From assembly GCF_003688665.1 (NCBI RefSeq), contig NZ_REFO01000010.1, positions 186,001-250,000 on the forward strand: DNA of 64,000 bases, in the 5' to 3' direction. Numbering within the stretch: position 1 is the first letter of the stretch; every line of letters starts with the position of its first letter. The translations under genes and the position numbers were made by a program. Source of the stretch: Hydrogenothermus marinus (GTDB lineage: Bacteria > Aquificota > Aquificia > Aquificales > Hydrogenothermaceae). Below the pieces are notes generated by a model. That model did no database searches and was not told the origin of the DNA. It saw only the letters and a program-made list of their open reading frames with translations. Of this stretch, positions 33,010 through 46,371 are shown piece by piece.

Positions 33010-35136
33010 ATGAATAAAGATCCTTCTGCAAATATTATAATACCATCTTTACCTGAAGAAATAAAAGGTTTAAGTGAAATTGCTCTAAATTTATGGTGGA
33101 CATGGAATCCAAGAGGAGAAAATCTTTTTAGAATTTTAAATCCATATTTATGGAAAGAAAGTGAAAATAATCCTATTGCAGTATTAAAAAATTTACCTAA
33201 GGAATACTTAGAAAGTCTTACTAAAGATGAAAACTTTATGAAAGAGTATAAATATGTTTATGCTCTTTTTAAAGATTATATGAATGATACTAATATATAT
33301 GCTAAAGAAAAACCTCTTCCAATTGCTTATTTTTGTGCAGAATTTGGATTACATCATACAATTCCTATATATTCAGGGGGACTTGGGATATTAGCAGGAG
33401 ATATCTTAAAAGAATCTAGTGATATGAATATACCAATAGTTGGAATAGGATTTATGTATCCTCATGGATATGTAAAACAGGTAATAGGTTCAGATGGCTG
33501 GCAACATGGAACAAAAGAAGAGCTACAAAAAGATTTAGCTCCAATAGAAAGGGTTTTAGATAAAAATGGAAATCATTTTATAATTCAAGTGCCTTTTATT
33601 GATCCTCCTGTTTATGCGGCAATATGGAAAGTAAATGTAGGGAAGGTTTCTTTATATTTACTTGATACAGATATAGAACAAAATGATCCTTGGGATAGAG
33701 AAATTTCTTATAGACTTTATACACCTGATTTACAACAAAGATTAAGACAACAGATAGTTTTAGGAATTGGTGGTTATAAAGTTTTGAAAGAGCTTGGTAT
33801 TGAGTATTCAATATTACACTTAAATGAAGGACATCCAGCTTTTGCTATATTTGAAAGAATTAGAAATTTTGTAGAAGATGAAAATTTAACATTAGATGAA
33901 GCTATAGAAAAGGTTAAAAGAAGTTCTATTTTTACAACTCATACACCTCTACAAGCAGCAACAGATGTATATAGTTTTGATATGATGAGCAAATATTTTC
34001 AAGATTATTGGCAACATTTAGGAATGACAAAAGAACAGTTTTTAAGTTTTGGAATAAATCCAGATGATCCTTCTGGTTTTAATATGACTGTTTTTGCCCT
34101 TAGAATGTGTAATTATAGAAATGCAGTAAGTAAAAAACATTGTGAAACTACAAAGAAAATATGGAAACATGTATTTGAAAAAGAAAATGAAAAAGATGTA
34201 CCAGTTGATTATGTAACAAATGGAGTACATATACCTACTTGGCTTGATGAAGAGCTTTACGATATTTATGAAGAAATATTAGGAGATAGATGGCTAATAC
34301 TTCAAGATAATCCTGATATATGGGAAAAGATTTTAGATATAGATGATAAAAAACTTTGGGAAATTAAATACAAAAACAAAGTAAGGATGATTAATTTTAT
34401 AAGAGAGAAAGCAAGAAAGAAATGGGCAAATGAAGAAGCAGATCCATCTGTTATTATTGCTGAAGGGGTTATGCTTGATCCTGATATTTTAACAATTGGC
34501 TTTGCCAGAAGAATGACTTCATATAAAAGGCCAGATTTAATACTTTATGATTTAGAAAGATTAGAAAAGATAATAAACAATGAATCAAAGCCTGTTCAGA
34601 TTATATTTGCAGGTAAAGCACATCCAGCAGATATTCCAGGTAAAAAGATCATCCAAAAAATATTTAAAATAGCTCAAGATCCTAAATTTAAAGGAAGAAT
34701 AGTATTTATTGAAGATTATGGAAAATTAGTAGCAAGATATTTAGTAAAAGGTGTTGATTTATGGCTTAATACTCCAAAACCTCCTCTTGAAGCTTGTGGA
34801 ACAAGTGGAATGAAAGCATCTATGAATGGAGTTTTACATTTATCATCTAATGATGGCTGGTGGGTAGAAGGATATAATGGTAAAAATGGTTGGGTTTTTG
34901 GACAAGAGCCTGCAGATGATTCAAAAGATGCAGAAGAACTTTACAACCTATTGGAAAATGAAGTTATACCTCTTTATTATGATAGAAATAGTGACGGTAT
35001 TCCTTACAAATGGATAAGAAAAATGAAAGAAGCAATGATTTCAGTATCTCCAAGATTTAGTGCAAGAAGAATGATGAAAGATTATTTAGAAAAATTTTAT
35101 ATTCCAATTACAAAAGAAATAACTAAAAAAGATTAA
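33010..35136 (+). CDS. glgP: Alpha-glucan (glycogen) phosphorylase, GT35
   Basis: The enzyme releases glucose-1-phosphate from alpha-1,4-glucan. The 708-residue protein is the short type that begins with a DUF3417-like region ([20 protein letters not shown]). It has [21 protein letters not shown], the glucose site [16 protein letters not shown], and the PLP-lysine region [19 protein letters not shown]. It heads the glycogen operon. Substrate range (glycogen versus maltodextrin) cannot be told. GTP-binding or phospho-regulatory sites of animal enzymes are absent. Confidence 0.95.
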
Positions 35137-35191
35137 TATAGACAGCTTAAAGCTTAAAAGCTATATTTATTTTAAAAGGAGGGAAAAAAGT

Positions 35192-35470
35192 TTGGTAAAG
35201 ATAGCTAAAAAAGGAAATAAAGCTTGGGTTACTTTTACTACTCCTGTTTTAGAATGCGAAAAAGTAGAGATAAAAGGAAGTTGGAATGACTGGCAACCGG
35301 AAGAAATGAAAAAAAAGAAAAATGGAGAATTTTATATTAGAAAATATTTACCAGCTAACCAAACATATGAGTTTGGTTATCTTATTGATGGTAATAAATG
35401 GATTTGGGACGATACAGTGGAAACTGTTTATAGTCCTTTTGGTAGTAAAAATTCTGTTTTAAAAATATAA
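35192..35470 (+). CDS. Stand-alone glycogen-binding module (CBM48/AMPK-beta type)
   Basis: The 92-residue protein, from TTG 35192 after AAAAGGAGGG, is only a carbohydrate-binding module. It shows VEIKGSWNDWQPEEMKKKKNG with the two Trp residues that stack on glucan, then YEFGYLIDGNKWIWDD. No enzyme domain is attached. In this operon it probably tethers or targets a partner enzyme to the glycogen granule, or has a regulatory role like AMPK-beta. It is separated from glgP by 55 bases and from the nucleotidyltransferase by 15. Confidence 0.88.
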   Translation: MVKIAKKGNKAWVTFTTPVLECEKVEIKGSWNDWQPEEMKKKKNGEFYIRKYLPANQTYEFGYLIDGNKWIWDDTVETVYSPFGSKNSVLKI

Positions 35471-35485
35471 GATAAAGGAAGGTTC

Positions 35486-37999
35486 ATGTCAAATGTAAAA
35501 GCAGTTTTAATGGCTGGTGGTTTTGGTACAAGAATTCAACCTTTAACTGCATCTGTACCAAAACCAATGCTTCCAGTTGTAAATTTTCCAATGATGGAAC
35601 ATATACTAAAAAAGTTAAAAAGAACAGGAATTGATGAAGTTGTAATTTTACTATATTTCAAACCTGATGTGATAAAAAACTATTTCAAAGATGGTAGTAA
35701 ATGGGGAGTAAAAATACATTATGTTTTACCTGATGATGATTATGGTACTGCAGGAGCAGTAAAGTTTGCACAAGAGTTTTTAGATACTACATTTATGGTT
35801 GTAAGTGGAGATTTAGTAACAGATTTTGATTTTAAAAAGATTATCTCTGAACATAGAAAGAAAAACTCAAAACTAAGTATTGCTTTAACCTCAGTTGAAA
35901 ATCCTTTAGAGTTTGGAATTGTTATTACAGATGAAAATCAAAAAATAGAGAAATTTTTAGAAAAACCAAGTTGGGGTGAAGTTTTTAGCGATACCATAAA
36001 TACAGGAATATATGTAATAGAACCTGAAATCTTAGATTTTATTCCATTAAAAGAAAATTTTGATTTTGCTAAAAATCTATTTCCACTACTTATGGAAAAA
36101 GGTATTGATTTATATGGAATAAATATGGAAGGCTACTGGAGAGATGTTGGAAATCCAGATAGTTATAGAGAAGTCCATCAAGATATTTTAAATGAAAGAT
36201 TAAATTTTGAAATTCCAGGAAAGGTTGTAGAATATCCTGATGGAAAACTTTATTTAACTGGAGATAGTCAAATAGATAACTCTGTAGAGATTGTTGGAAA
36301 TGTAGTAATTGGGAATAATGTAAAACTTGGAAAAGGTGTAAAACTTAATAATGTGGTAATAGGTGATAATGTAGAAATAGGAGAAAATGGAAAAATAAGA
36401 AATTCTGTTTTATGGCATGATATAAAAATAGGTAAAAACTTTATTTTAGATAATGGGGTTATATGTGAAAATAATGAAATAGGAGATAATGTTGAAGCAA
36501 AAGCAGGATTAATACTTGCAAGAAATTGTAAAATTGGAGATTTAGTAAAAATAGAGCAAGATGTTACTATATGGCCAGATAAAAAGATAGACCCAGCTTC
36601 AATAGTAAATAATAATATTGTATTTGGAGATAGATATAAAAGCTCTATTTTTGAACATGGTAGTGTCGTAGGTAAAAGTAATATTGAATTTAGTTGTGAT
36701 ATGGCAACAAAATTAGCAGAAGCTTTTGCTACTGTTTTACCTGTTGGAGCAAAAATAGCTACTGCAAGAGATAAAGATAAAAGTGCTAGAATGCTTAAAA
36801 GATCATTCTTAGGAGGTCTTTTATCTTCTGGTATAAATGTTGTTGATTTAGGAGGAGTTCCTATCTCTGTATTAAGACATGAGATTTATACAAACCCAGA
36901 GATTGTAGGTGGGGTTTATTTTAAACAAAGTTCTGTTGATCCATTTTCAACAGAGGCAACCTTTTTTAATGAGCATGGACTTAGAATAAGTACAAATACT
37001 GCTAAAGCAGTAGAAAAAGCATTCTTCAAAGAGAAATTTAGAAGAGTTGATTATTATCAAATAGGAAAAATTTATGAAAATGATTATGCAGTAGAAATAG
37101 AAAAATATAAAAATGCGGTTAAAGAAACAGTAGATTTTAAAATCATCACAAGTGAAAATTTTAGAATTGCAGTTGATATGATGCATGGAATTTTAGGAGA
37201 AGTATTTCCTGAAATACTAACTGAGTTAGAAATAGAACATATTACATTAAATAGTTATTATGATGAAAGAAAACTATTTAACTTGCCTCATTTAGAGAAT
37301 ATTTCTAAAAAAGATATGTCAAATATAGTTAAATCCTTAGGGCTAAAAGCTGGTTTTATGCTTTATCCAAATGGAGAGAAAATCCTAATAATTACAGAAG
37401 AAGGAGAAGTACTTGATAAAATCAAAGGTTTACTTGTTGTTTTAAATCTTGTTGATATACATGCAAAAAATCTAAATACTAAACTAAAAGTATTTTTACC
37501 TGTGTGGGCGCCAGATATTGTTAAGTTTGAAAATTTAGAAATAACTTATGGTAAATATACAGATTTTAAACTTGAAGATCTTCAAAAATACTATTTAGTT
37601 GCAACTGTAGAAGGTAGTTTTGCATTTACAGAGTTTGTACCATATAGAGATACTATGTATGCAACATTAAAAATATTAGAATTTTTAAACAGATATAAAT
37701 TAAGTTTAGCTGAAATTTCTAAAAATATAGTTAAATTCTTTTATAAACATTGCGAAATTCCTTGCCCTCAAATAAAAAAAGGGAAAATAATGAAAAAATT
37801 TATACAAGAAGCAAAAGGAAAAAAACATTCCTTAGTTGATGGAGTGAAAATATGGGAGAATGATACTGATTGGATACTTTTAATTCCAGATCAGTATGGG
37901 GAATTTTTACATTTATATATGCAAGCAAAGAATGAAGAAATAGGAAATAAATTACATAAAAAATATGAAGAAAAGATAAAAAACTGGATGGAAAACTAA
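35486..37999 (+). CDS. NDP-sugar pyrophosphorylase fused to left-handed beta-helix and degenerate phosphoglucomutase domain
   Basis: The 837-residue protein has three parts. Residues 1-235 are a sugar-1-phosphate nucleotidyltransferase with intact signature (AGGFGTRIQPLTASVPKPML, then VVSGDLVTDFD). Residues 250-370 are a hexapeptide-repeat helix. Residues about 385-835 have the phosphohexomutase fold but have lost its motifs: the serine loop reads YFKQSSVDPFS rather than SHNP, the metal loop YPNGEK rather than DGDxDR, and the phosphate loop LIPDQYGE rather than RPSGTEP. The transferase may make the glucosyl donor of this operon, which lacks glgC; the mutase half is probably structural or regulatory. 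Annotated relatives are called GMPP/PMM. Confidence 0.88.
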   Translation: MSNVKAVLMAGGFGTRIQPLTASVPKPMLPVVNFPMMEHILKKLKRTGIDEVVILLYFKPDVIKNYFKDGSKWGVKIHYVLPDDDYGTAGAVKFAQEFLDTTFMVVSGDLVTDFDFKKIISEHRKKNSKLSIALTSVENPLEFGIVITDENQKIEKFLEKPSWGEVFSDTINTGIYVIEPEILDFIPLKENFDFAKNLFPLLMEKGIDLYGINMEGYWRDVGNPDSYREVHQDILNERLNFEIPGKVVEYPDGKLYLTGDSQIDNSVEIVGNVVIGNNVKLGKGVKLNNVVIGDNVEIGENGKIRNSVLWHDIKIGKNFILDNGVICENNEIGDNVEAKAGLILARNCKIGDLVKIEQDVTIWPDKKIDPASIVNNNIVFGDRYKSSIFEHGSVVGKSNIEFSCDMATKLAEAFATVLPVGAKIATARDKDKSARMLKRSFLGGLLSSGINVVDLGGVPISVLRHEIYTNPEIVGGVYFKQSSVDPFSTEATFFNEHGLRISTNTAKAVEKAFFKEKFRRVDYYQIGKIYENDYAVEIEKYKNAVKETVDFKIITSENFRIAVDMMHGILGEVFPEILTELEIEHITLNSYYDERKLFNLPHLENISKKDMSNIVKSLGLKAGFMLYPNGEKILIITEEGEVLDKIKGLLVVLNLVDIHAKNLNTKLKVFLPVWAPDIVKFENLEITYGKYTDFKLEDLQKYYLVATVEGSFAFTEFVPYRDTMYATLKILEFLNRYKLSLAEISKNIVKFFYKHCEIPCPQIKKGKIMKKFIQEAKGKKHSLVDGVKIWENDTDWILLIPDQYGEFLHLYMQAKNEEIGNKLHKKYEEKIKNWMEN

Positions 38000-40012
38000 A
38001 TGTTAACCCTTAATTTTATATGGCATATGCATCAACCAAGCTACTTAAATGAAGATGGAATAATGCATATGCCATGGGTTTTTCTACATTCTATAAAAGA
38101 TTATTTTGATATGCCTTTTTTAGTGTCTAAATTTGAAAATATAAAAGCTACTTTTAATTTAACACCTACTTTAATAGAGCAAATTCTATTATATGAAGAA
38201 TATAAAACAGAAAAGGATAAATTTTTAATCTTATTAAAAAAAGATACAAAAGATTTAACTAAAGAAGAAAAAAATTTTATTATAAAAATATGTAAAAGCT
38301 CACCATATAAAACAATGGTAGAGCCTTATGAAAGATATAAAGAACTGTATCAAAAAGATATTTTAAATAATAAAGAGTTACTTGATTTAGAAGTTATATA
38401 TTTACTGTCTTGGACTGGAAATTATCTAAAAGAAAACTCTGAAGTTGTAAAAGAACTGCTAAAAAAAGGAAAAAATTTTACATCTGAAGATAAAAATAGC
38501 CTAATTGAAGAGTTAATAAATTTTATTCCAAAAATTTTACCTTTTTATAAAAAACTTCAAGAAGAAGGAAAAATATCTATATCTACAACCCCTTATTTCC
38601 ATCCAATACTTCCACTTTTAATAGATATAAATGTTGCAAAAGAAGCAGATAAAAATATTAAACTACCAAAAAATCCGGAAAGCTTGAAAGAGGATGCAAT
38701 ATTACATATTAAAAAAGCAAAAAAACTATATGAAGAAATTTTTGGTATAAAACCAAATGGATTTTGGCCAGCAGAAGGAGCAGTAGATGAAAAAAGTATA
38801 TTCTTATATATTGATGAAGATATTAAATGGATAGCTACAGATGAGGCTATTCTTTTTAAATCTTTAAAAGATAACAATAGAAAAAATCTATATAAACTAT
38901 ATAACCATAAAGGTATAAAAATAGTTTTTAGAGACCATAATTTAAGTGATTTAATAGGTTTTGTCTATAAATTTTGGGATTTTGAAAAGGCAGTAAACGA
39001 TTTTATAACTCATTTAAAAAATATTAATAACAATTTTGAAAATTCTATTGTATCTGTAATATTAGATGGTGAAAACCCTTGGGAATACTACAAAAATAAT
39101 GGAAAAGATTTTTTAAATAAACTATATGAAGAAATATCTTCTTTAGATTTTTGTAAAACAAAAACAATGGATGAGATACTAAGTACAGAACCTAAAAATT
39201 TAGAGAATATAAAACCTGGATCATGGATATATGGGAATTTTAATACCTGGATAGGAGATGAAGAAAAAAATAAAGCTTGGGAGCTTATATTTCAAACAAA
39301 AAGAGATTTTAAACATCATTTAAATGAATTAAATGAAGATACTATAAAACAGATAGAAGAAGAATTTTTGAAATCAGAATGTAGTGATTGGTTTTGGTGG
39401 TATGGAAAAGGACATTTTACAAAATTTAATTTAGAATTTGATTTTCTTTTTAGAAACCATCTTATTAAAATTTATAAATTAATAGGCTTACCTGTTCCAT
39501 CTAATCTCTATATACCAATTGCAAAATCTAAAAATATAGAATCTTTTGTGATGGAGCCAAAATCATATATATCACCAGTTATAGATGGTAAAGAAACTTC
39601 TTTTTTTGAATGGCTTGATAGTGGACTTATAGATGAAGAAAAAGCTTATACAACAATGCAAAAACAAAAAAACATTATTAGTAAAATCTACTGGGGAGAA
39701 GATGAAGAAAATATATATTTAAGACTTGATGGAGATATAAAAAAATTAAAAGGCTCAAAAATCAATATATTCTTAAGAGAAAAAAACCTATTTTCATTAA
39801 ATACAGATAAAAATGTATATGAAGATGATTGTATTAAGATGGCAATAAATGAGATTGTAGAAATAGCTATAAAGAAAAAATGTATAAATCAACAGCTTGT
39901 TTATTTTAGGATAGAGATTCAAAAAGATAATAATATTTTACAAGTTCTACCTGGAATAACTGAACTAAAAATTAATTTAAATGAAGATTTTAAAAGGTGT
40001 TGGTTTGTATGA
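38000..40012 (+). CDS. GH57 glycoside hydrolase (amylolytic, amylopullulanase-like)
   Basis: The 670-residue protein begins right after the previous stop. GH57 motifs: FIWHMHQPSY at the N-terminus (motif 1), the nucleophile Glu in GFWPAEGAVDEKS, and the acid/base Asp in VILDGENPWEYY. A C-terminal beta domain (YISPVIDGKETSFFEW; YWGEDEENIYLRLDGD) follows, as in the GH57 alpha-amylase/amylopullulanase group. It has no signal peptide, so it works in the cytoplasm on storage glucan. Exact bond specificity (1,4 or 1,6) is not readable. Confidence 0.9.
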   Translation: MLTLNFIWHMHQPSYLNEDGIMHMPWVFLHSIKDYFDMPFLVSKFENIKATFNLTPTLIEQILLYEEYKTEKDKFLILLKKDTKDLTKEEKNFIIKICKSSPYKTMVEPYERYKELYQKDILNNKELLDLEVIYLLSWTGNYLKENSEVVKELLKKGKNFTSEDKNSLIEELINFIPKILPFYKKLQEEGKISISTTPYFHPILPLLIDINVAKEADKNIKLPKNPESLKEDAILHIKKAKKLYEEIFGIKPNGFWPAEGAVDEKSIFLYIDEDIKWIATDEAILFKSLKDNNRKNLYKLYNHKGIKIVFRDHNLSDLIGFVYKFWDFEKAVNDFITHLKNINNNFENSIVSVILDGENPWEYYKNNGKDFLNKLYEEISSLDFCKTKTMDEILSTEPKNLENIKPGSWIYGNFNTWIGDEEKNKAWELIFQTKRDFKHHLNELNEDTIKQIEEEFLKSECSDWFWWYGKGHFTKFNLEFDFLFRNHLIKIYKLIGLPVPSNLYIPIAKSKNIESFVMEPKSYISPVIDGKETSFFEWLDSGLIDEEKAYTTMQKQKNIISKIYWGEDEENIYLRLDGDIKKLKGSKINIFLREKNLFSLNTDKNVYEDDCIKMAINEIVEIAIKKKCINQQLVYFRIEIQKDNNILQVLPGITELKINLNEDFKRCWFV

Positions 40013-42003
40013 AAACTTTACTTTTATTTGGTGTTCATATGCACCAACCTGTAGATAACTTAAAAGAAGCTATAGATAATGCCATAGAAAAATGTTATGC
40101 ACCATTTTTTGAAGTATTAAAAGATTATCCAGAATTTAAGTTCTCTTTACATTGTAGTGGATGGCTTTTTGAAAAAATAAAATATGAATATTCTACAGTT
40201 TTTGAAAATATAAAGTATTTAATTAATAAAGGTAGTATTGAGATATTTGGAGGAGGATATTACGAGCCGATTTTAAGCTCAATTCCAAAAGAAGATAGAA
40301 TTAATCAGTTAAAAAAATTAAATTCATTTTTAAAAAAAGAGTTTAATCAAGAACCAAAAGGTATTTGGCTTACAGAGAGAGTATGGGAAAGTGGGATAAT
40401 ATCAGATTTGAAAGAAACTGGTTTTGATTATTGTATGGTAGATGATTACCATTTTATAAATGTTGGATTTGATGAAAAAGATTTAAATGGTTATTACCTA
40501 ACAGAAGAAGGTGGAGAAATCATAGGACTTTTTCCAATATCAAAAAGACTTAGATATGATATTCCATTTAAAGAAGTTGATATAGCTATAAAAAGTATAA
40601 AAAGTAGAAAAGAAGTAGCAATAATATTTGATGATTTAGAAAAGTTTGGATTATGGCCAAATACTTATGGATGGGTTTATGAAAAAGGTTGGCTAAAACA
40701 GTTTATAGAAAAAATCTTAGAAAATAAAGAAATTATACCAATCCATTATAATGAATATTTTAATCAGTATAAACCAAAAGGATTAGCTTATATCCCTAAT
40801 GTTTCTTATTATGAAATGGGAGAATGGAGCTTAAATACAGAAGAAGCTATAGAAATAAAAAAGTTAAAAAAACAGCTTGGAGAAGATATAGCAATAAAGT
40901 TTTTAAAAAGTGGTTTATGGAAAAACTTTTTTGTTAAATATGAAGAATCAAATAGAATTCATAAAAGAATGTTAGAATGTTCTAAAAATAAACTAAAAGA
41001 TGAAAAATATCTAGATTATCTATATAAATCTCAATGTAATGATGTTCTTTGGCATGGAGTATTTGGTGGTTTATATCTTCCAAATTTAAGAGATAATGCA
41101 TATAGATACATTATAGAATGTGAAAATTTAAGATATAAAAATAAAAATATAATTGAGATTAATGATAATGATTTAGATGGATTTGAAGAAGTAAAGATAA
41201 TTACAGAAAACTTAATAGCTCGTTTTTACTCAAAATATGGTGGACAGCTTATAGAACTTGATGATAGAAAAAGTTGTTTTAATTTCCAAAACACCTTAAC
41301 AAGAAGAAAAGAAGCTTATCATGAAGAACTAATAAATAATAATCAAAACAAAAAAGACAAAAAAGTAGTAACAATCCATGAAATACATCCAACTATTGAT
41401 GAAAAAACAAAAAATGAGATAGTTTATGACTGGTATATAAAAAATTCCTTTATAGACCATATTAGTGATAACTCTTTTAATTTAGAAAATTTTAAAAAAT
41501 GTAGTTTTAAAGAACTTGGAGATTTTACAAATCAACCATTTCAGCTAAAAAAAGAAGGCAATACAATAAAATTTAAAAGGATTGGTGGGATATATCAGGA
41601 CAAAACCTATCCTACAACAATAGAAAAAAGATATATTACTGAAAAAAATAAAATAGATTTTAATATTAAAGTAGATACTGAAAGTATAAATAAATATTTA
41701 TATATCCTTGAGTTTAATTTCCATTTTGCAAATTTAGAAAATATTTTTATAAATAACAAAAATTCTCTTAACGATTTGGAAATAAATAATATAAAACAGA
41801 TAGAGATTTTAGATTTATACACCAAAAATAAGATTTTAATTTCTACAGATAATAGTTTTTCATTTTATTCAACATTAATAAAAACCCTTTCTCAAAATGA
41901 AAAAGGAGTTGATTTTATTATTCAAGGAGTAAGTTTTGCCTTAATCTTTTCCTTAGAAAAACAATTAAATATAAATGGGAGTTTAAGCATAGAAAATGTC
42001 TGA
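40009..42003 (+). CDS. GH57 4-alpha-glucanotransferase-like enzyme
   Basis: The second GH57 protein has 664 residues from ATG 40009, coupled by an ATGA overlap to the first; a GTG at 39997 is in frame but less likely. Motifs match the Thermococcus 4-alpha-glucanotransferase: LFGVHMHQPV, nucleophile Glu in GIWLTERVWESG, acid/base Asp in IFDDLEKFGLWPNTY, followed by WVYEKGWL. Its C-terminal half has the DUF1925/DUF1926-like region (SQCNDVLWHGVFGGLYLPNL; FYSKYGGQLIELDDRK). It probably disproportionates maltodextrins during glycogen turnover. Cytoplasmic. Confidence 0.9.
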   Translation: MKTLLLFGVHMHQPVDNLKEAIDNAIEKCYAPFFEVLKDYPEFKFSLHCSGWLFEKIKYEYSTVFENIKYLINKGSIEIFGGGYYEPILSSIPKEDRINQLKKLNSFLKKEFNQEPKGIWLTERVWESGIISDLKETGFDYCMVDDYHFINVGFDEKDLNGYYLTEEGGEIIGLFPISKRLRYDIPFKEVDIAIKSIKSRKEVAIIFDDLEKFGLWPNTYGWVYEKGWLKQFIEKILENKEIIPIHYNEYFNQYKPKGLAYIPNVSYYEMGEWSLNTEEAIEIKKLKKQLGEDIAIKFLKSGLWKNFFVKYEESNRIHKRMLECSKNKLKDEKYLDYLYKSQCNDVLWHGVFGGLYLPNLRDNAYRYIIECENLRYKNKNIIEINDNDLDGFEEVKIITENLIARFYSKYGGQLIELDDRKSCFNFQNTLTRRKEAYHEELINNNQNKKDKKVVTIHEIHPTIDEKTKNEIVYDWYIKNSFIDHISDNSFNLENFKKCSFKELGDFTNQPFQLKKEGNTIKFKRIGGIYQDKTYPTTIEKRYITEKNKIDFNIKVDTESINKYLYILEFNFHFANLENIFINNKNSLNDLEINNIKQIEILDLYTKNKILISTDNSFSFYSTLIKTLSQNEKGVDFIIQGVSFALIFSLEKQLNINGSLSIENV

Positions 42004-43018
42004 AATAAGATATGATTTAATAAATGATGAATATGTAATAATAGCACCTGAAAGATTAAGAAAACCAGATAGTTTTAAAGAAAAAAAAGAGATAAAAGAA
42101 ATTTCCATAAAAGATTGTCCATTTTGTCCTGGAAATGAACATCTAACACCAAATGAGATTTACTCTTTAAGAGATGGGAATAAATGGAAAGTAAGAGTTG
42201 TTCCAAACTTATATAAAGCTTTAAAAATTGAAGCACCTTTAATATCAACCCAGATTGGAATCTTTGAAAAAATAGAAGGATTTGGAGCCCATGAAGTTAT
42301 TATAGATACACCAAGACATCTTTTTAAAATGAATGATTTTACATTAGAAGAGTATTATAACTGGCTTTATGTAATAAGAGAAAGAGCAGTAGATTTAAAA
42401 AAAGATACAAGATTGATATATTTAGTTTTTTTCAAAAACCAAGGAAAATTAGCAGGAGCAAGTCAAAGCCATCCACATACACAGCTTATAGCTCTTCCAA
42501 TAGTTCCTAAAAGCTCTTTATGGATATTAAAAAGAGCATTTAATTATTACAAAGAACATGGAAGAACTATTTTTGAAGATATAATTACAAATGAAGAGTT
42601 TGAAAATAAAAGAGTAATAATATCAACAGATTTTTTTATAGCTTTTGCACCATTTGCAAGTAGTTTTCCATTTGAGATAATGATAATTCCAAAAAAACAA
42701 AAATCATCTATAATTGATTTAGATAATCAAGATTTAAAAGAGTTATCTAATATCCTAAAAAAAGTAATAGATGCCCTTTATGAAGAACTTGGAGATTTTG
42801 ATTTTAATATATCTTTTGGAAATCCACCAATAAATAAAAATTTTGAGATAGAAGAGTTTTTTGAAGATATAAAATATTTTTGGAGATTTTATATAAGGAT
42901 AATGCCAAGAATTTACAGATTAGCAGGATTTGAGCTATCAACAAATATGAAAATAAATCCTGTATTACCTGAAAAAGTAGCAACCTTATTAAGAGGAGTT
43001 ATGGAAAATGGGATTTAA
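41996..43018 (+). CDS. galT: Galactose-1-phosphate uridylyltransferase family (HIT superfamily)
   Basis: The 340-residue protein has the GalT zinc motif (CPFCPGNEHLTPNE) and the active-site His triad in SQSHPHTQLIALP. GalT swaps UMP between UDP-glucose and galactose-1-phosphate. There are no other Leloir genes here and the gene is embedded in a glycogen operon, so it could instead be a related nucleotidylyl transferase acting on glucose-1-phosphate (such as an ADP- or UDP-glucose phosphorylase). It overlaps the previous gene by 8 bases and glgA by 11. Confidence 0.88.
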   Translation: MSEIRYDLINDEYVIIAPERLRKPDSFKEKKEIKEISIKDCPFCPGNEHLTPNEIYSLRDGNKWKVRVVPNLYKALKIEAPLISTQIGIFEKIEGFGAHEVIIDTPRHLFKMNDFTLEEYYNWLYVIRERAVDLKKDTRLIYLVFFKNQGKLAGASQSHPHTQLIALPIVPKSSLWILKRAFNYYKEHGRTIFEDIITNEEFENKRVIISTDFFIAFAPFASSFPFEIMIIPKKQKSSIIDLDNQDLKELSNILKKVIDALYEELGDFDFNISFGNPPINKNFEIEEFFEDIKYFWRFYIRIMPRIYRLAGFELSTNMKINPVLPEKVATLLRGVMENGI

Positions 43019-44474
43019 TATACTATTTACAATATCAGAAGTTGCATCTTTTGCAAAAACTGGAGGATTAGCAGATTTTGGAGAGGCTTTACCAAAAGCA
43101 TTAAAAAAGTTAGGACACAATATAATTGTTGTAATGCCAAGATATTATGAAATAGATAGAAAGAATTTAGAGCATATTCCTGGCCCATTATCTGTGCCTA
43201 TGGGTAAAATGGGAGAATTATATGCAGGAGTTTATAAAAGTTATATTCCAGATTCAGATGTTGAAATATACTTTATAGATTATGAACTATTTTTTGGAAG
43301 AAAAAATCTATATACAAATGAAAATGGATACTCATATGGAGATAATGACAAAAGATTTATATTTTTTTCTAAAGCAAGTATGGAACTTTGTAAAAAAATA
43401 GGATTTAAACCAGATATATTACATGCAAACGATTGGCATACAGCGGCAATACCTATTTTAAAAAATACAAGATATAAAAATGAAGATATTTTTAAAGATT
43501 CTAAATCTGTTTTAACAATACATAATCTGCAACATCAAGGAATTTTTCCAAAAGAAGATATGGAAATATTAGAAATAGGATGGGAGCATTTTAATCCTTA
43601 TGAGATGGAAGCCCTTGGAGCTATTAATATATTAAAAGGCGGAATTTATCATGCAGATGCAATAACAACTGTAAGTAAAAAATATGCCCAAGAAATTCAA
43701 ACAAAAGAGTATGGATTTGGATTAGATGACCATATTAAAGCTCATAGTTATAAGCTTTATGGAATATTAAACGGAGTTGATTATACAAAATGGAACCCAA
43801 AGATAGATAAATATATAGTTAAAAATTATGATATAGATAACATGGATGGCAAAAAAGAATGTAAAAAAGATTTACAGAAAATATTTAATCTTCCAGAAAG
43901 GAATGATATTCCTTTAATTGGATTTATAGGAAGATTAGTAGAACAAAAAGGGATAGGATTAATAGCAGGAGCTATTGATAAACTTTTAGAATTAGATGCT
44001 CAGTATGTAATTCTTGGAACAGGAGAGAAATGGGCAGAACATTTTTTCAGCGAAATATCTTCAAAATATCCAAAAAAATTTGGATGCTATATAGGATATA
44101 ACAACCAGTTAGCCCATAAAATAGAAGCAGGAAGTGATTTATTTTTAATGCCTTCATTATTTGAACCTTGTGGCTTAAATCAGATTTACTCTTTAAGATA
44201 TGGAACTATTCCTATAGTTAGAGCAACTGGAGGTCTTGATGATACTATAGAAAATTTTAATCCAATTACAAAAGAAGGAACAGGTTTTAAATTTTGGGAT
44301 GCAACACCAGAAGCTTTATATAACACAGTAAAATGGGCAGTAGATACTTGGAAAAATGATAAAGATGCTATAAAAAAAATGCAAGAAAGAGGAATGAGGA
44401 AAAGATTTAGTTGGGAAAACTCAGCTAAGAAATATGAAAAAGTTTATAAAAAAATAAGAGGTATAGATGCATAA
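43008..44474 (+). CDS. glgA: Glycogen synthase (GT5)
   Basis: GlgA extends alpha-1,4-glucan from a nucleotide-glucose donor. The 488-residue protein has the donor-binding N-terminal loop [18 protein letters not shown] (KxGGL), [26 protein letters not shown], the catalytic [12 protein letters not shown] region, and [21 protein letters not shown], typical of bacterial GT5. glgA and glgB overlap by 8 bases. The donor is probably ADP- or UDP-glucose, but no glgC is in the window. Confidence 0.97.
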
Positions 44475-46371
44475 AATCTATTACGATATATCAAGGTTTA
44501 CAGATTTTGATATATATCTTTTTAAAGAAGGAACCCATAGAAAACTTTATGAAAAGTTTGGTGCTCATTTTATGGAAAGAGAAGGTAAAAAAGGAGTTTA
44601 TTTTAGTGTATGGGCACCAAATGCAGAAAAAGTAAGTGTTATTGGGGATTTTAATAATTATGATGATAAAGTACATCCATTAAAGAAAAGAGAAGATGGA
44701 AGTGGAATATGGGAAGGATTTATTGAAGGCGTTCAAGAAGGATTAACATATAAATACAAAATATACTCAAAACATAATGGAATAGTAAATGAAAAAAGTG
44801 ATCCTTATGGATTTTTCTTTGAAAAACCACCAAAATCAGCAACTATTACCTATGATATAAAAGGATACCAATGGAAAGATAAAGATTGGATGGAAAATAG
44901 AATAGAAAAAAATAATCATTTAGCACCAATCAATATTTATGAAGTTCATTTAGGTTCATGGAAAAGAAAATTAAACAATCAGTATTTAACATATACAGAA
45001 TTAGCTGAAGAGCTTGTTAAGTATGTAAAAGAAATGGGTTATACTCATATTGAATTAATGCCAATTACAGAATATCCATTTGATGGTTCTTGGGGTTATC
45101 AAACTGTTGGATATTTTGCACCAACTTCTAGGTTTGGTACGCCAAAAGAGTTTATGCAGTTTGTAGATATTATGCACCAAAATGATATAGGAGTTATTAT
45201 AGACTGGGTTCCTTCTCATTTTGCAGTAGATGGACATGGACTTATAAATTTTGATGGAACGCCTCTTTATGAGCATCCAGATCCAAGAATGGCTTATCAT
45301 CCAGAATGGGGAAGTGCAATATTTGATTATGGAAAAAATGAAGTTAGAGCATTTTTAATATCAAGTGCAATGTTTTGGTTTGAAAAATATCATATAGATG
45401 GAATTAGAGTTGATGCAGTAGCATCAATGCTTTACCTTGATTATGCAAGAAAAGAAGGAGAATGGATACCAAACAAATATGGAGGAAATGAAAATTTAGA
45501 AGCAATAGAGTTTTTAAAACAGCTAAATAAAGCAGTTTATGAAGAATTTACTGATATTATGACTATTGCAGAAGAATCTACTGCATTTCCAATGGTATCA
45601 AAGCCTGTATATTTAGGAGGTCTTGGATTTGGTTTTAAATGGAATATGGGATGGATGCATGATACTTTAAATTATATGAAAGTTGATCCTTTATTTAGGC
45701 AGTATCACCATCATCAATTAACTTTTAGTTTTGTGTATATGTACAATGAAAATTATATACTTCCTTTAAGTCATGATGAAGTTGTTCATATGAAAGGTTC
45801 TCTTATAAATAAAATGCCCGGTGATTATGACCAAAAATTTTCAAATTTAAGAGCTTTATTTGCATACATGACTGCATTTCCAGGAAAAAAATTATTATTT
45901 ATGGGTGGAGAAATTGCCCAGTGGAAAGAATGGAATTATAAAGAAAGTCTTGACTGGAATTTATTAGATTACCCAAAACATAGAGGAGTTCAAAATTTAG
46001 TAAAACAACTAAATAATCTTTATAAAAATGAAAAAGCATTACATCAGTATGATTGTGAAGCAAAAGGTTTTGAATGGATAGATGAACTTGATTATAAAAG
46101 TAATGTAATTAGCTTTATTAGAAAAAGTGATAATGATTTTATTATTATTGTTTGTAATTTTTCTGGTATTACAAGAGAAAATTATAGAATAGGTGTTCCA
46201 GAAGAAGGCATTTATAAAGAGATATTTAATTCTCAGTATAAAGAGTTTGGTGGATTAGATATAAAAAATGAAAAACCAATAAAATCTAAAAAAGTTGAAT
46301 GCCATGGAAGAAAAAACTCTATCAGTTTAACCCTTCCACCTTTATCAGTAATATATTTAAAAAAATTATAA
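44467..46371 (+). CDS. glgB: 1,4-alpha-glucan branching enzyme (GH13)
   Basis: GlgB makes alpha-1,6 branches. The 634-residue protein has a CBM48 N-terminal domain ([20 protein letters not shown]) and the GH13 core: [20 protein letters not shown]-like region [15 protein letters not shown], nucleophile Asp in [15 protein letters not shown], Glu in [10 protein letters not shown], and [20 protein letters not shown]. It lacks the long N-terminal extension of the E. coli enzyme (about 730). It ends the operon and its stop shares TTATAA with the convergent ridA stop. Confidence 0.97.

Follow-up and report, generated by a model that had tools for sequence, protein, structure and literature searches.

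The closest described relatives of the protein reported here are chains that join a nucleotidyltransferase, a left-handed β-helix (LbH) and a phosphohexomutase, such as the mannose-1-phosphate guanylyltransferase/phosphomannomutase fusion SCO1388 of Streptomyces, a type listed as K16881 in KEGG. S. coelicolor SCO1388 has been described as a putative GMP/ManB fusion (GMP or GMPP, GDP-mannose pyrophosphorylase) that is apparently bifunctional; its disruption gave no resistance to phage phiC31, double mutants behaved like single ones and the authors judged its part in GMP activity to be small (‘probably contributes little’; PMC5982138). A transposon screen grouped SCO1388 with mannosylation genes whose insertions alter actinorhodin production (PMC6585502). 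A GMPP homologue of S. venezuelae, an organism reported to have no obvious glgC, is described as making GDP-glucose (PMC5247666), a precedent for non-GlgC pyrophosphorylases that make nucleoside diphosphate (NDP)-glucose. We analysed a fusion of this architecture from Hydrogenothermus marinus, encoded at 35486..37999 (+ strand) in a glycogen operon; the window, that is the whole stretch under analysis, comprises 64,000 nucleotides (contig NZ_REFO01000010.1, positions 186,001 to 250,000). Probably the fusion replaces GlgC as a glucose-1-phosphate nucleotidylyltransferase, and its mutase part is catalytically dead. The fused architecture itself is known; new here are the loss of the mutase active site throughout the sample and the probable GlgC role in two phyla. 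We found no report in the open-access literature of GlgC replacement by this fusion family or of a dead mutase in it, and the word ‘glycogen’ does not occur in the searched text of a Sulfurimonas review and a Thermovibrio genome paper.

The open reading frame encodes 837 aa and has full-length relatives. It comprises a nucleotidyltransferase domain (residues 5–236, 35498..36193, + strand; Pfam NTP_transferase, PF00483), an LbH of the eIF2B-epsilon type (residues 254–356, 36245..36553, + strand; PF25084, 70 bits, cut-off 54) and a four-domain pseudo-phosphohexomutase (residues 385–837, 36638..37996, + strand; Pfam, Foldseek and alignment). In the last of these Pfam recognizes PGM_PMM_I (390–519) and PGM_PMM_II (540–640). 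In a Foldseek comparison of the AlphaFold2 (AF2) model, the C-terminal half matched whole mutases over 464–471 columns with TM 0.84–0.87 by target (seven best matches, archaeal; among the structures matched are 9du5, 1wqa, 2f7l and 9ix8). Because this match spans a complete mutase, domains III and IV are predicted to be present but too diverged for Pfam. The model thus points to the four-domain fold of the α-D-phosphohexomutase superfamily, and the chain has the nucleotidyltransferase, LbH and full mutase fold of the guanylyltransferase/phosphomannomutase fusions. The mean pLDDT of the model is 62.9; the C-terminal half is mostly confident and the N-terminal half poor, so that our statements on the latter are based on sequence. 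An earlier note on this DNA had proposed an odd fusion of an intact transferase with a dead mutase, and the reading frame, Pfam and motif alignment bear it out: in the transferase GGFGTR (11–16), PKP, D109, EKP (159–161) and D220 are all present.

The mutase half shares its whole fold with archaeal phosphohexomutases such as 9du5 and 1wqa (TM 0.84–0.85 by target), but all four active-site loops are replaced. As references for the motifs we used C15, an intact mutase and the only other PGM_PMM_I gene of this genome, and a Streptomyces phosphomannomutase (PMM). The serine loop TASHN has become KQSSV (480–484; degenerate loop KQSSVDP, residues 480–486, 36923..36943, + strand), the metal loop DGDGDR is YPNGEK (627–632, 37364..37381, + strand) and the phosphate loop RASGTEP is IPDQYGE (800–806, 37883..37903, + strand). 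These three losses had been pointed out in the earlier note, and alignment with the two intact mutases confirms them; a fourth, absent from its list, affects the sugar loop, where GEESGG is replaced by ATVEGS (706–711, 37601..37618, + strand). None of the enzyme motifs (Ser loop, DGDGDR, GEESG, RASGTEP) is found in the fusion. The residue at the catalytic Ser position is still Ser (S482), while the surrounding loop, the metal ligands and the phosphate ligands are lost.

This state is shared by a widespread family and is not the oddity of one gene. We read 64 distinct fused proteins, namely that of the window, 17 of 22 from Aquificota, 42 of the Campylobacterota type and four of five actinobacterial full-length plasmid matches (H5 left out). 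They correspond to 67 alignment rows minus the duplicate records L063, L065 and L067; column conservation, tree and nucleotidyltransferase-residue alignments hold all 67 rows (63 non-actinobacterial, 60 of them distinct). Two frame-broken (L012, L013) and two partial (L014, L016) genes from a set of 13 relative loci were left out of the 64. No intact mutase active site was seen among these 64 proteins from Campylobacterota, Aquificota and four Actinomycetota. The catalytic-position Ser is kept in 38 and the first metal Asp in four; no protein has the second or third metal Asp, the sugar-loop Glu or Ser, or the Arg or Ser of the phosphate loop. The five core residues (Ser, three Asp and the phosphate-binding Arg) are down to one or none in every protein, whereas all five are present in the Streptomyces PMM used as control. 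Decay confined to a single gene is rejected, since the same loss is seen in 64 of 64 proteins. It is very improbable that the protein is bifunctional, with a C-terminal half that still works as an enzyme through a changed chemistry. The frequent Ser at the catalytic position and the complete fold would suit such an enzyme, but the missing metal, sugar-loop and phosphate-loop residues, the presence of an intact mutase elsewhere in the genome and of intact Pgm-type mutases in the operons of relatives argue against it, and we rejected it because the catalytic set is complete in none of the 64. The ‘bifunctional’ label of the actinobacterial proteins likewise looks unjustified, to judge by the four sequences read, in all of which the mutase appears dead and among which SCO1388 is not included.

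The loops that replace the metal and phosphate sites are themselves constrained: in the 67-row alignment Pro628 and Pro801 hardly vary, and loops of the IPDQY type are the prevailing form. In addition, R428, R435, K438, R439, R464, R519 and K765 are basic in 61–64 of the 64 fused proteins, and the two intact mutases have neither Arg nor Lys at any of these seven positions (two are His in the Streptomyces PMM). Such conservation is apparently the signature of a domain retained for a purpose other than mutase chemistry. The mutase half seems to have lost catalysis early in the fusion family and to have been kept as a non-catalytic module, perhaps a regulatory or assembly module that uses the newly invariant basic residues. 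Relatives with a nucleotidyltransferase and an LbH, GMPPA/GMPPB and eIF2B gamma/epsilon, use a non-catalytic member for regulation, GMPPA having a non-catalytic regulatory role; there, however, the degenerate part is the nucleotidyltransferase, and in the fusion it is the mutase. A regulatory role of the pseudo-mutase is weakly suggested. The sensing of sugar phosphates that the earlier note had proposed for it draws indirect backing from the loss of the active site in all 64 proteins and from the seven new basic residues. The chief rival to that role, and to it alone, is a ligand-free structural spacer or oligomerization part, which we judge a serious contender at somewhat less than even odds: no ligand is known and many of the conserved columns are Gly and Pro. 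The seven basic positions, on the other hand, look like a charged binding surface, although contacts between domains might explain them equally well.

The N-terminal half has a sugar pocket like that of GlgC. E159, Y176, D193, F194, W218 and D220 align with E194, Y216, D239, F240, W274 and D276 of E. coli GlgC, which together with S212 are known for its glucose-1-phosphate site; on this list six of seven residues are matched, and Ser212 is Asn172 in the fusion. The Asp-Phe pair (D193-F194) occurs in all 63 non-actinobacterial rows and in all three aligned GlgCs; the nine other reference enzymes all lack it. The same position holds Ser-Ile in three solved GMPPs, Asp-Ile in the solved structure 8x7s and Asp-Trp in the four actinobacterial fusions. 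On the base side, PDDDYGT or a close variant is found in 63 of 63 non-actinobacterial rows, whereas the three solved GMPPs and the four actinobacterial fusions have E-x-x-P-L-G-T. The fusion thus has neither the sugar-pocket nor the base-side residues of the GDP-mannose pyrophosphorylase type. Because of the GlgC-like Asp-Phe pair and the non-GMPP base-side segment, glucose 1-phosphate would be the substrate of an enzyme other than a plain GMPP, and glucose rather than mannose is strongly indicated. With GlgC (TIGR02091) the protein has in common the NTP_transferase and β-helix domains and the slot in the GlgA/GlgB pathway; it differs in the C-terminal pseudo-mutase, the Asn for Ser212, the base-side segment and a TIGR02091 score of 129.7 bits that does not reach the curated cut-off of 424.9. 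With the SCO1388-type fusions it shares the full-length architecture and 29–32% identity (four actinobacterial rows), but its pocket is D-F and theirs D-W. Having this pocket together with a base segment of the GMPP kind, the actinobacterial fusions (L036–L039) may make another product than the vent-bacteria branch does.

The earlier note had placed the fusion in a glycogen operon without glgC, and so we find it. Neither the operon nor the set of five PF00483 genes that the genome (1.60 Mb, 99.95% complete) contains includes a recognizable glgC; the five are the fusion and, by motif and length, genes for GalU, GlmU, RmlA and an HddC-like protein. A glgC elsewhere in the genome, which by that note's own account would have spoken against its proposal, was looked for among these genes; the other four being of other types, it was rejected. 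A survey with TIGR02091 at E ≤ 1e-80, positive in 7 of 14 control genomes, gave no glgC in any of 121 Aquificota or 347 Campylobacterota genomes, the latter sampled evenly around the Sulfurimonas metagenome-assembled genome (MAG) of L009. Among the 13 genomes behind one set of relative loci, MAGs of unstated completeness, none had glgC above the cut-off and matches at E ≤ 1e-40 were fusions only.

The fusion follows glycogen synthase. Fifty-eight of the 347 Campylobacterota genomes have the fusion and 57 have glgA; 57 have both, 289 neither, one the fusion alone and none glgA alone. (The 58 include three partial matches, in G440, G130 and G372, and one with an in-frame stop, in G171.) In 47 of the 57, fusion and glgA are found on a single contig, invariably on the same strand and with less than 10 kb between them. 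Two glgA genes, mostly close together, occur in 31 of the 57 glgA-bearing Campylobacterota (for example L112 and L113). The Aquificota comprise 22 genomes with the fusion, 54 with glgA and 21 with both, so that glgA is present in 21 of 22 fusion genomes versus 33 of 99 others; two further matches, broken in G022 (residues 1–152) and limited to the nucleotidyltransferase part in G069, were dropped from an initial 24. In 13 of the 21 genomes the genes are within 15 kb, in six they are on different draft contigs and in two, G012 and G061 of one genus, a single contig holds both at distances of 388 and 545 kb; co-occurrence therefore does not need linkage. Supply of the glucosyl donor in place of GlgC, as the earlier note had suggested, is well supported by the absence of glgC, the 57 of 57 co-occurrence with glgA and the GlgC-like pocket.

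The operon in the window runs glgP, fusion, GH57, GH57, galT-like, glgA, glgB, all on the + strand. An α-glucan phosphorylase of the glgP type (33010..35136; TIGR02094, 822 bits) precedes the fusion; directly past the fusion's stop codon begins a GH57 protein (38000..40012; PF03065), which has relatives in 19 of 19 Campylobacterota regions, followed by a GH57 α-amylase/4-α-glucanotransferase (39997..42003; PF09095, PF09094, PF03065), the GalT-like gene (41996..43018), GlgA of family GT5 (43008..44474; TIGR02095, 561.5 bits, cut-off 328.5) and the branching enzyme GlgB (44467..46371; PRK05402, 974 bits). The nearest solved relative of the GalT-like protein is 1z84, presumably Arabidopsis At5g18200, with 178 bits as against 69 bits for 1hxp, E. 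coli GalT; that of GlgA is Starch synthase I 4hln, a barley enzyme of the ADP-glucose type. At5g18200 is reported to be an ADP-glucose phosphorylase (PMC11066809 and PMC6329318). ADP-glucose is suggested as the donor of the operon, because the GalT-like protein is nearest to the plant ADP-glucose phosphorylase and GlgA to Starch synthase I. The GalT-like protein, which 16 of 19 Campylobacterota regions encode, may control the ADP-glucose pool.

These 19 regions are the ones of at least 14 kb among 22 Campylobacterota fusion regions, and most were picked for a nearby glgA, so that the presence of glgA in all 19 reflects the selection; the other three (L100, L117 and L118, 10–12 kb) were not counted and hold no glgA. 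Besides the first GH57 gene (19) and glgA (19) they contain a ROK kinase (16), the second GH57 gene (15), glgP (15), glgB (12), pgi (9), pfkA (7) and phosphoglucomutase (6), with identities assigned by Pfam for examples. The window operon has no pgi, and the genome outside the operon was not searched for it. The operon mutases of relatives are of the Pgm type, with the loops TPSHNPP, DTDxDRHG, GEESAG and RPSGTED; the Ser, metal and phosphate loops are intact in 13 of 15 rows (12 distinct loci), and one loop is unmatched in each of the other two (metal in L013; phosphate in L103, whose reading frame is cut by the locus edge). No relatives of GalU, GlmU, RmlA or HddC were recognized in 84 partly overlapping fusion-bearing loci. 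Pgi, phosphoglucomutase, GlgA and GlgB cover the rest of the route from fructose 6-phosphate to glycogen, and for the nucleotide step no candidate other than the fusion was seen. In G012 an RmlA gene lies beside galT-like and glgA genes, with the fusion far away.

Several points weigh against a GlgC role, and some of them favour other products. The top NCBIfam score is that of man1P_GTase_Rv (NF052502), a mannose-1-phosphate guanylyltransferase model, although at 255.7 bits it stays below the cut-off of 440. Together with the description of SCO1388 as a GMP/ManB fusion (PMC5982138) and its place among mannosylation genes (PMC6585502), this score would fit a GDP-mannose pyrophosphorylase whose mutase has decayed, and which serves glycoconjugates and is merely located in glycogen operons. 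We hold that to be improbable, given the score below cut-off, the Asp-Phe pocket in place of the Ser-Ile of the solved GMPPs, the tracking of glgA in all 57 Campylobacterota and the lack of phage resistance and the small GMP contribution described for SCO1388 (PMC5982138).

The base chosen by the enzyme is not fixed by its sequence, and the closest solved structure of the N-terminal half, 8x7s, bears the name of a UTP--glucose-1-phosphate uridylyltransferase and is presumably a CugP (the cyanobacterial non-GalU UDP-glucose pyrophosphorylase). Both share the INTGIY motif, whereas the solved chain has no mutase domain and Asp-Ile in place of Asp-Phe. Synechocystis sll1558 may be a fused protein; if so, its activity would favour UDP-glucose. 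Annotated as a GMPP, it is said to have UDP-glucose pyrophosphorylase activity; the same source states that sll1558 codes for cugP, and also names slr0207 as ugp (PMC7401256). Thirty-three Aquificota genomes have glgA and neither an intact fusion nor glgC, so a donor route that needs neither must exist in this phylum, and some GlgA may not require ADP-glucose; our guess is UDP-glucose made by GalU. Of five such regions (L094–L098), four have no operon around glgA except for one galT-like gene, and in G017 (L097) glgP, GH57 and glgA stand side by side without a fusion. In G022 (L099), one of the 33, the broken fusion gene, which matches over residues 1–152 only and contains stop codons, lies beside galT-like and glgA genes. 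Counting these observations and the GDP-glucose enzyme of S. venezuelae (PMC5247666), it is conceivable, if rather unlikely, that the product is UDP-, GDP- or dTDP-glucose and that the GlgA of these bacteria takes that donor. Against this stand the GalU of the genome, which would make a second UDP-glucose enzyme redundant, the ADP-glucose type of the nearest solved relatives of GlgA and the GalT-like protein, and the PDDDYGT-like segment in place of E-x-x-P-L-G-T. ATP as the nucleotide of the fusion is favoured by a narrow margin over an even chance.

Further adverse points concern the survey. A strongly diverged glgC could escape the E ≤ 1e-80 threshold. Phylogeny and operon transfer both make the co-occurrence counts non-independent, and the nominal Fisher p of 5e-65 for fusion and glgA is not a true probability, since the genomes are related and the operon moves as a unit. 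Some copies lie away from glycogen genes: on the Sulfuricurvum kujiense plasmid pSULKU01 (L035, 12035–14572) a copy is flanked by phospholipase A and patatin-like genes, glycogen genes being absent from the 12–14 kb displayed on either side, and none are found within 2–4 kb of three annotated actinobacterial plasmid copies.

Taking the fusion as the probable stand-in for GlgC, we envisage the following mechanism. A separate, intact phosphoglucomutase would supply glucose 1-phosphate, and the N-terminal domain would join it to a nucleotide, most probably ATP, to yield the ADP-glucose that GlgA and GlgB use. Assembly of the oligomer would fall to the LbH domain, as in GlgC and the GDP-mannose pyrophosphorylases. 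The old mutase pocket and the new invariant Arg/Lys residues would most likely bind an anionic ligand or the partner domain, and such binding might tune the transferase as the classical effectors do GlgC. More tentatively, we propose that GlgC-less bacteria of two phyla use a separately derived NDP-glucose pyrophosphorylase in which a dead phosphoglucomutase acts, at its old cleft and the Arg/Lys set, as a switch that binds a sugar phosphate or bisphosphate. A fold that formerly turned glucose 6-phosphate into glucose 1-phosphate would then turn on or off the following enzyme of the pathway, to which it is fused.

In H. marinus the operon was most likely acquired horizontally from Campylobacterota. 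The window fusion is 79% identical to a copy in a MAG labelled Nitratiruptor, 57–61% identical to seven other Campylobacterota-type MAG copies in full-length alignment and 49–52% identical to four copies from its own family. It nests inside the Campylobacterota (SH-aLRT 99–100; quick method, midpoint root) and is absent from five genomes of the same genus that are 76–99% complete. The upstream AmtB looks native, being 89% identical in the same-family genome G006 and 90% in the same-genus genomes G005 and G003; no close match was found in three same-genus genomes (G001, G002 and G004). The nested position, the absence from same-genus genomes and the native-looking neighbour argue for transfer. 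A chimeric contig behind the odd phylogeny was rejected on the AmtB identities to same-family and same-genus genomes, with those three same-genus genomes unmatched. The rest of the glycogen operon (33010–46371) also appears to be of Campylobacterota descent, by identity to L006.

If the proposed role is correct, it would fill a missing step of the glycogen pathway in glycogen-forming Campylobacterota and part of the Aquificota, and it would correct the reading of a Streptomyces relative as a ‘mannose enzyme’ or ‘bifunctional mutase’. It would also be a tractable example of an enzyme that has become a non-catalytic module attached to the next enzyme of its own pathway, and in vent and hot-spring autotrophs the control of carbon storage would become directly testable.

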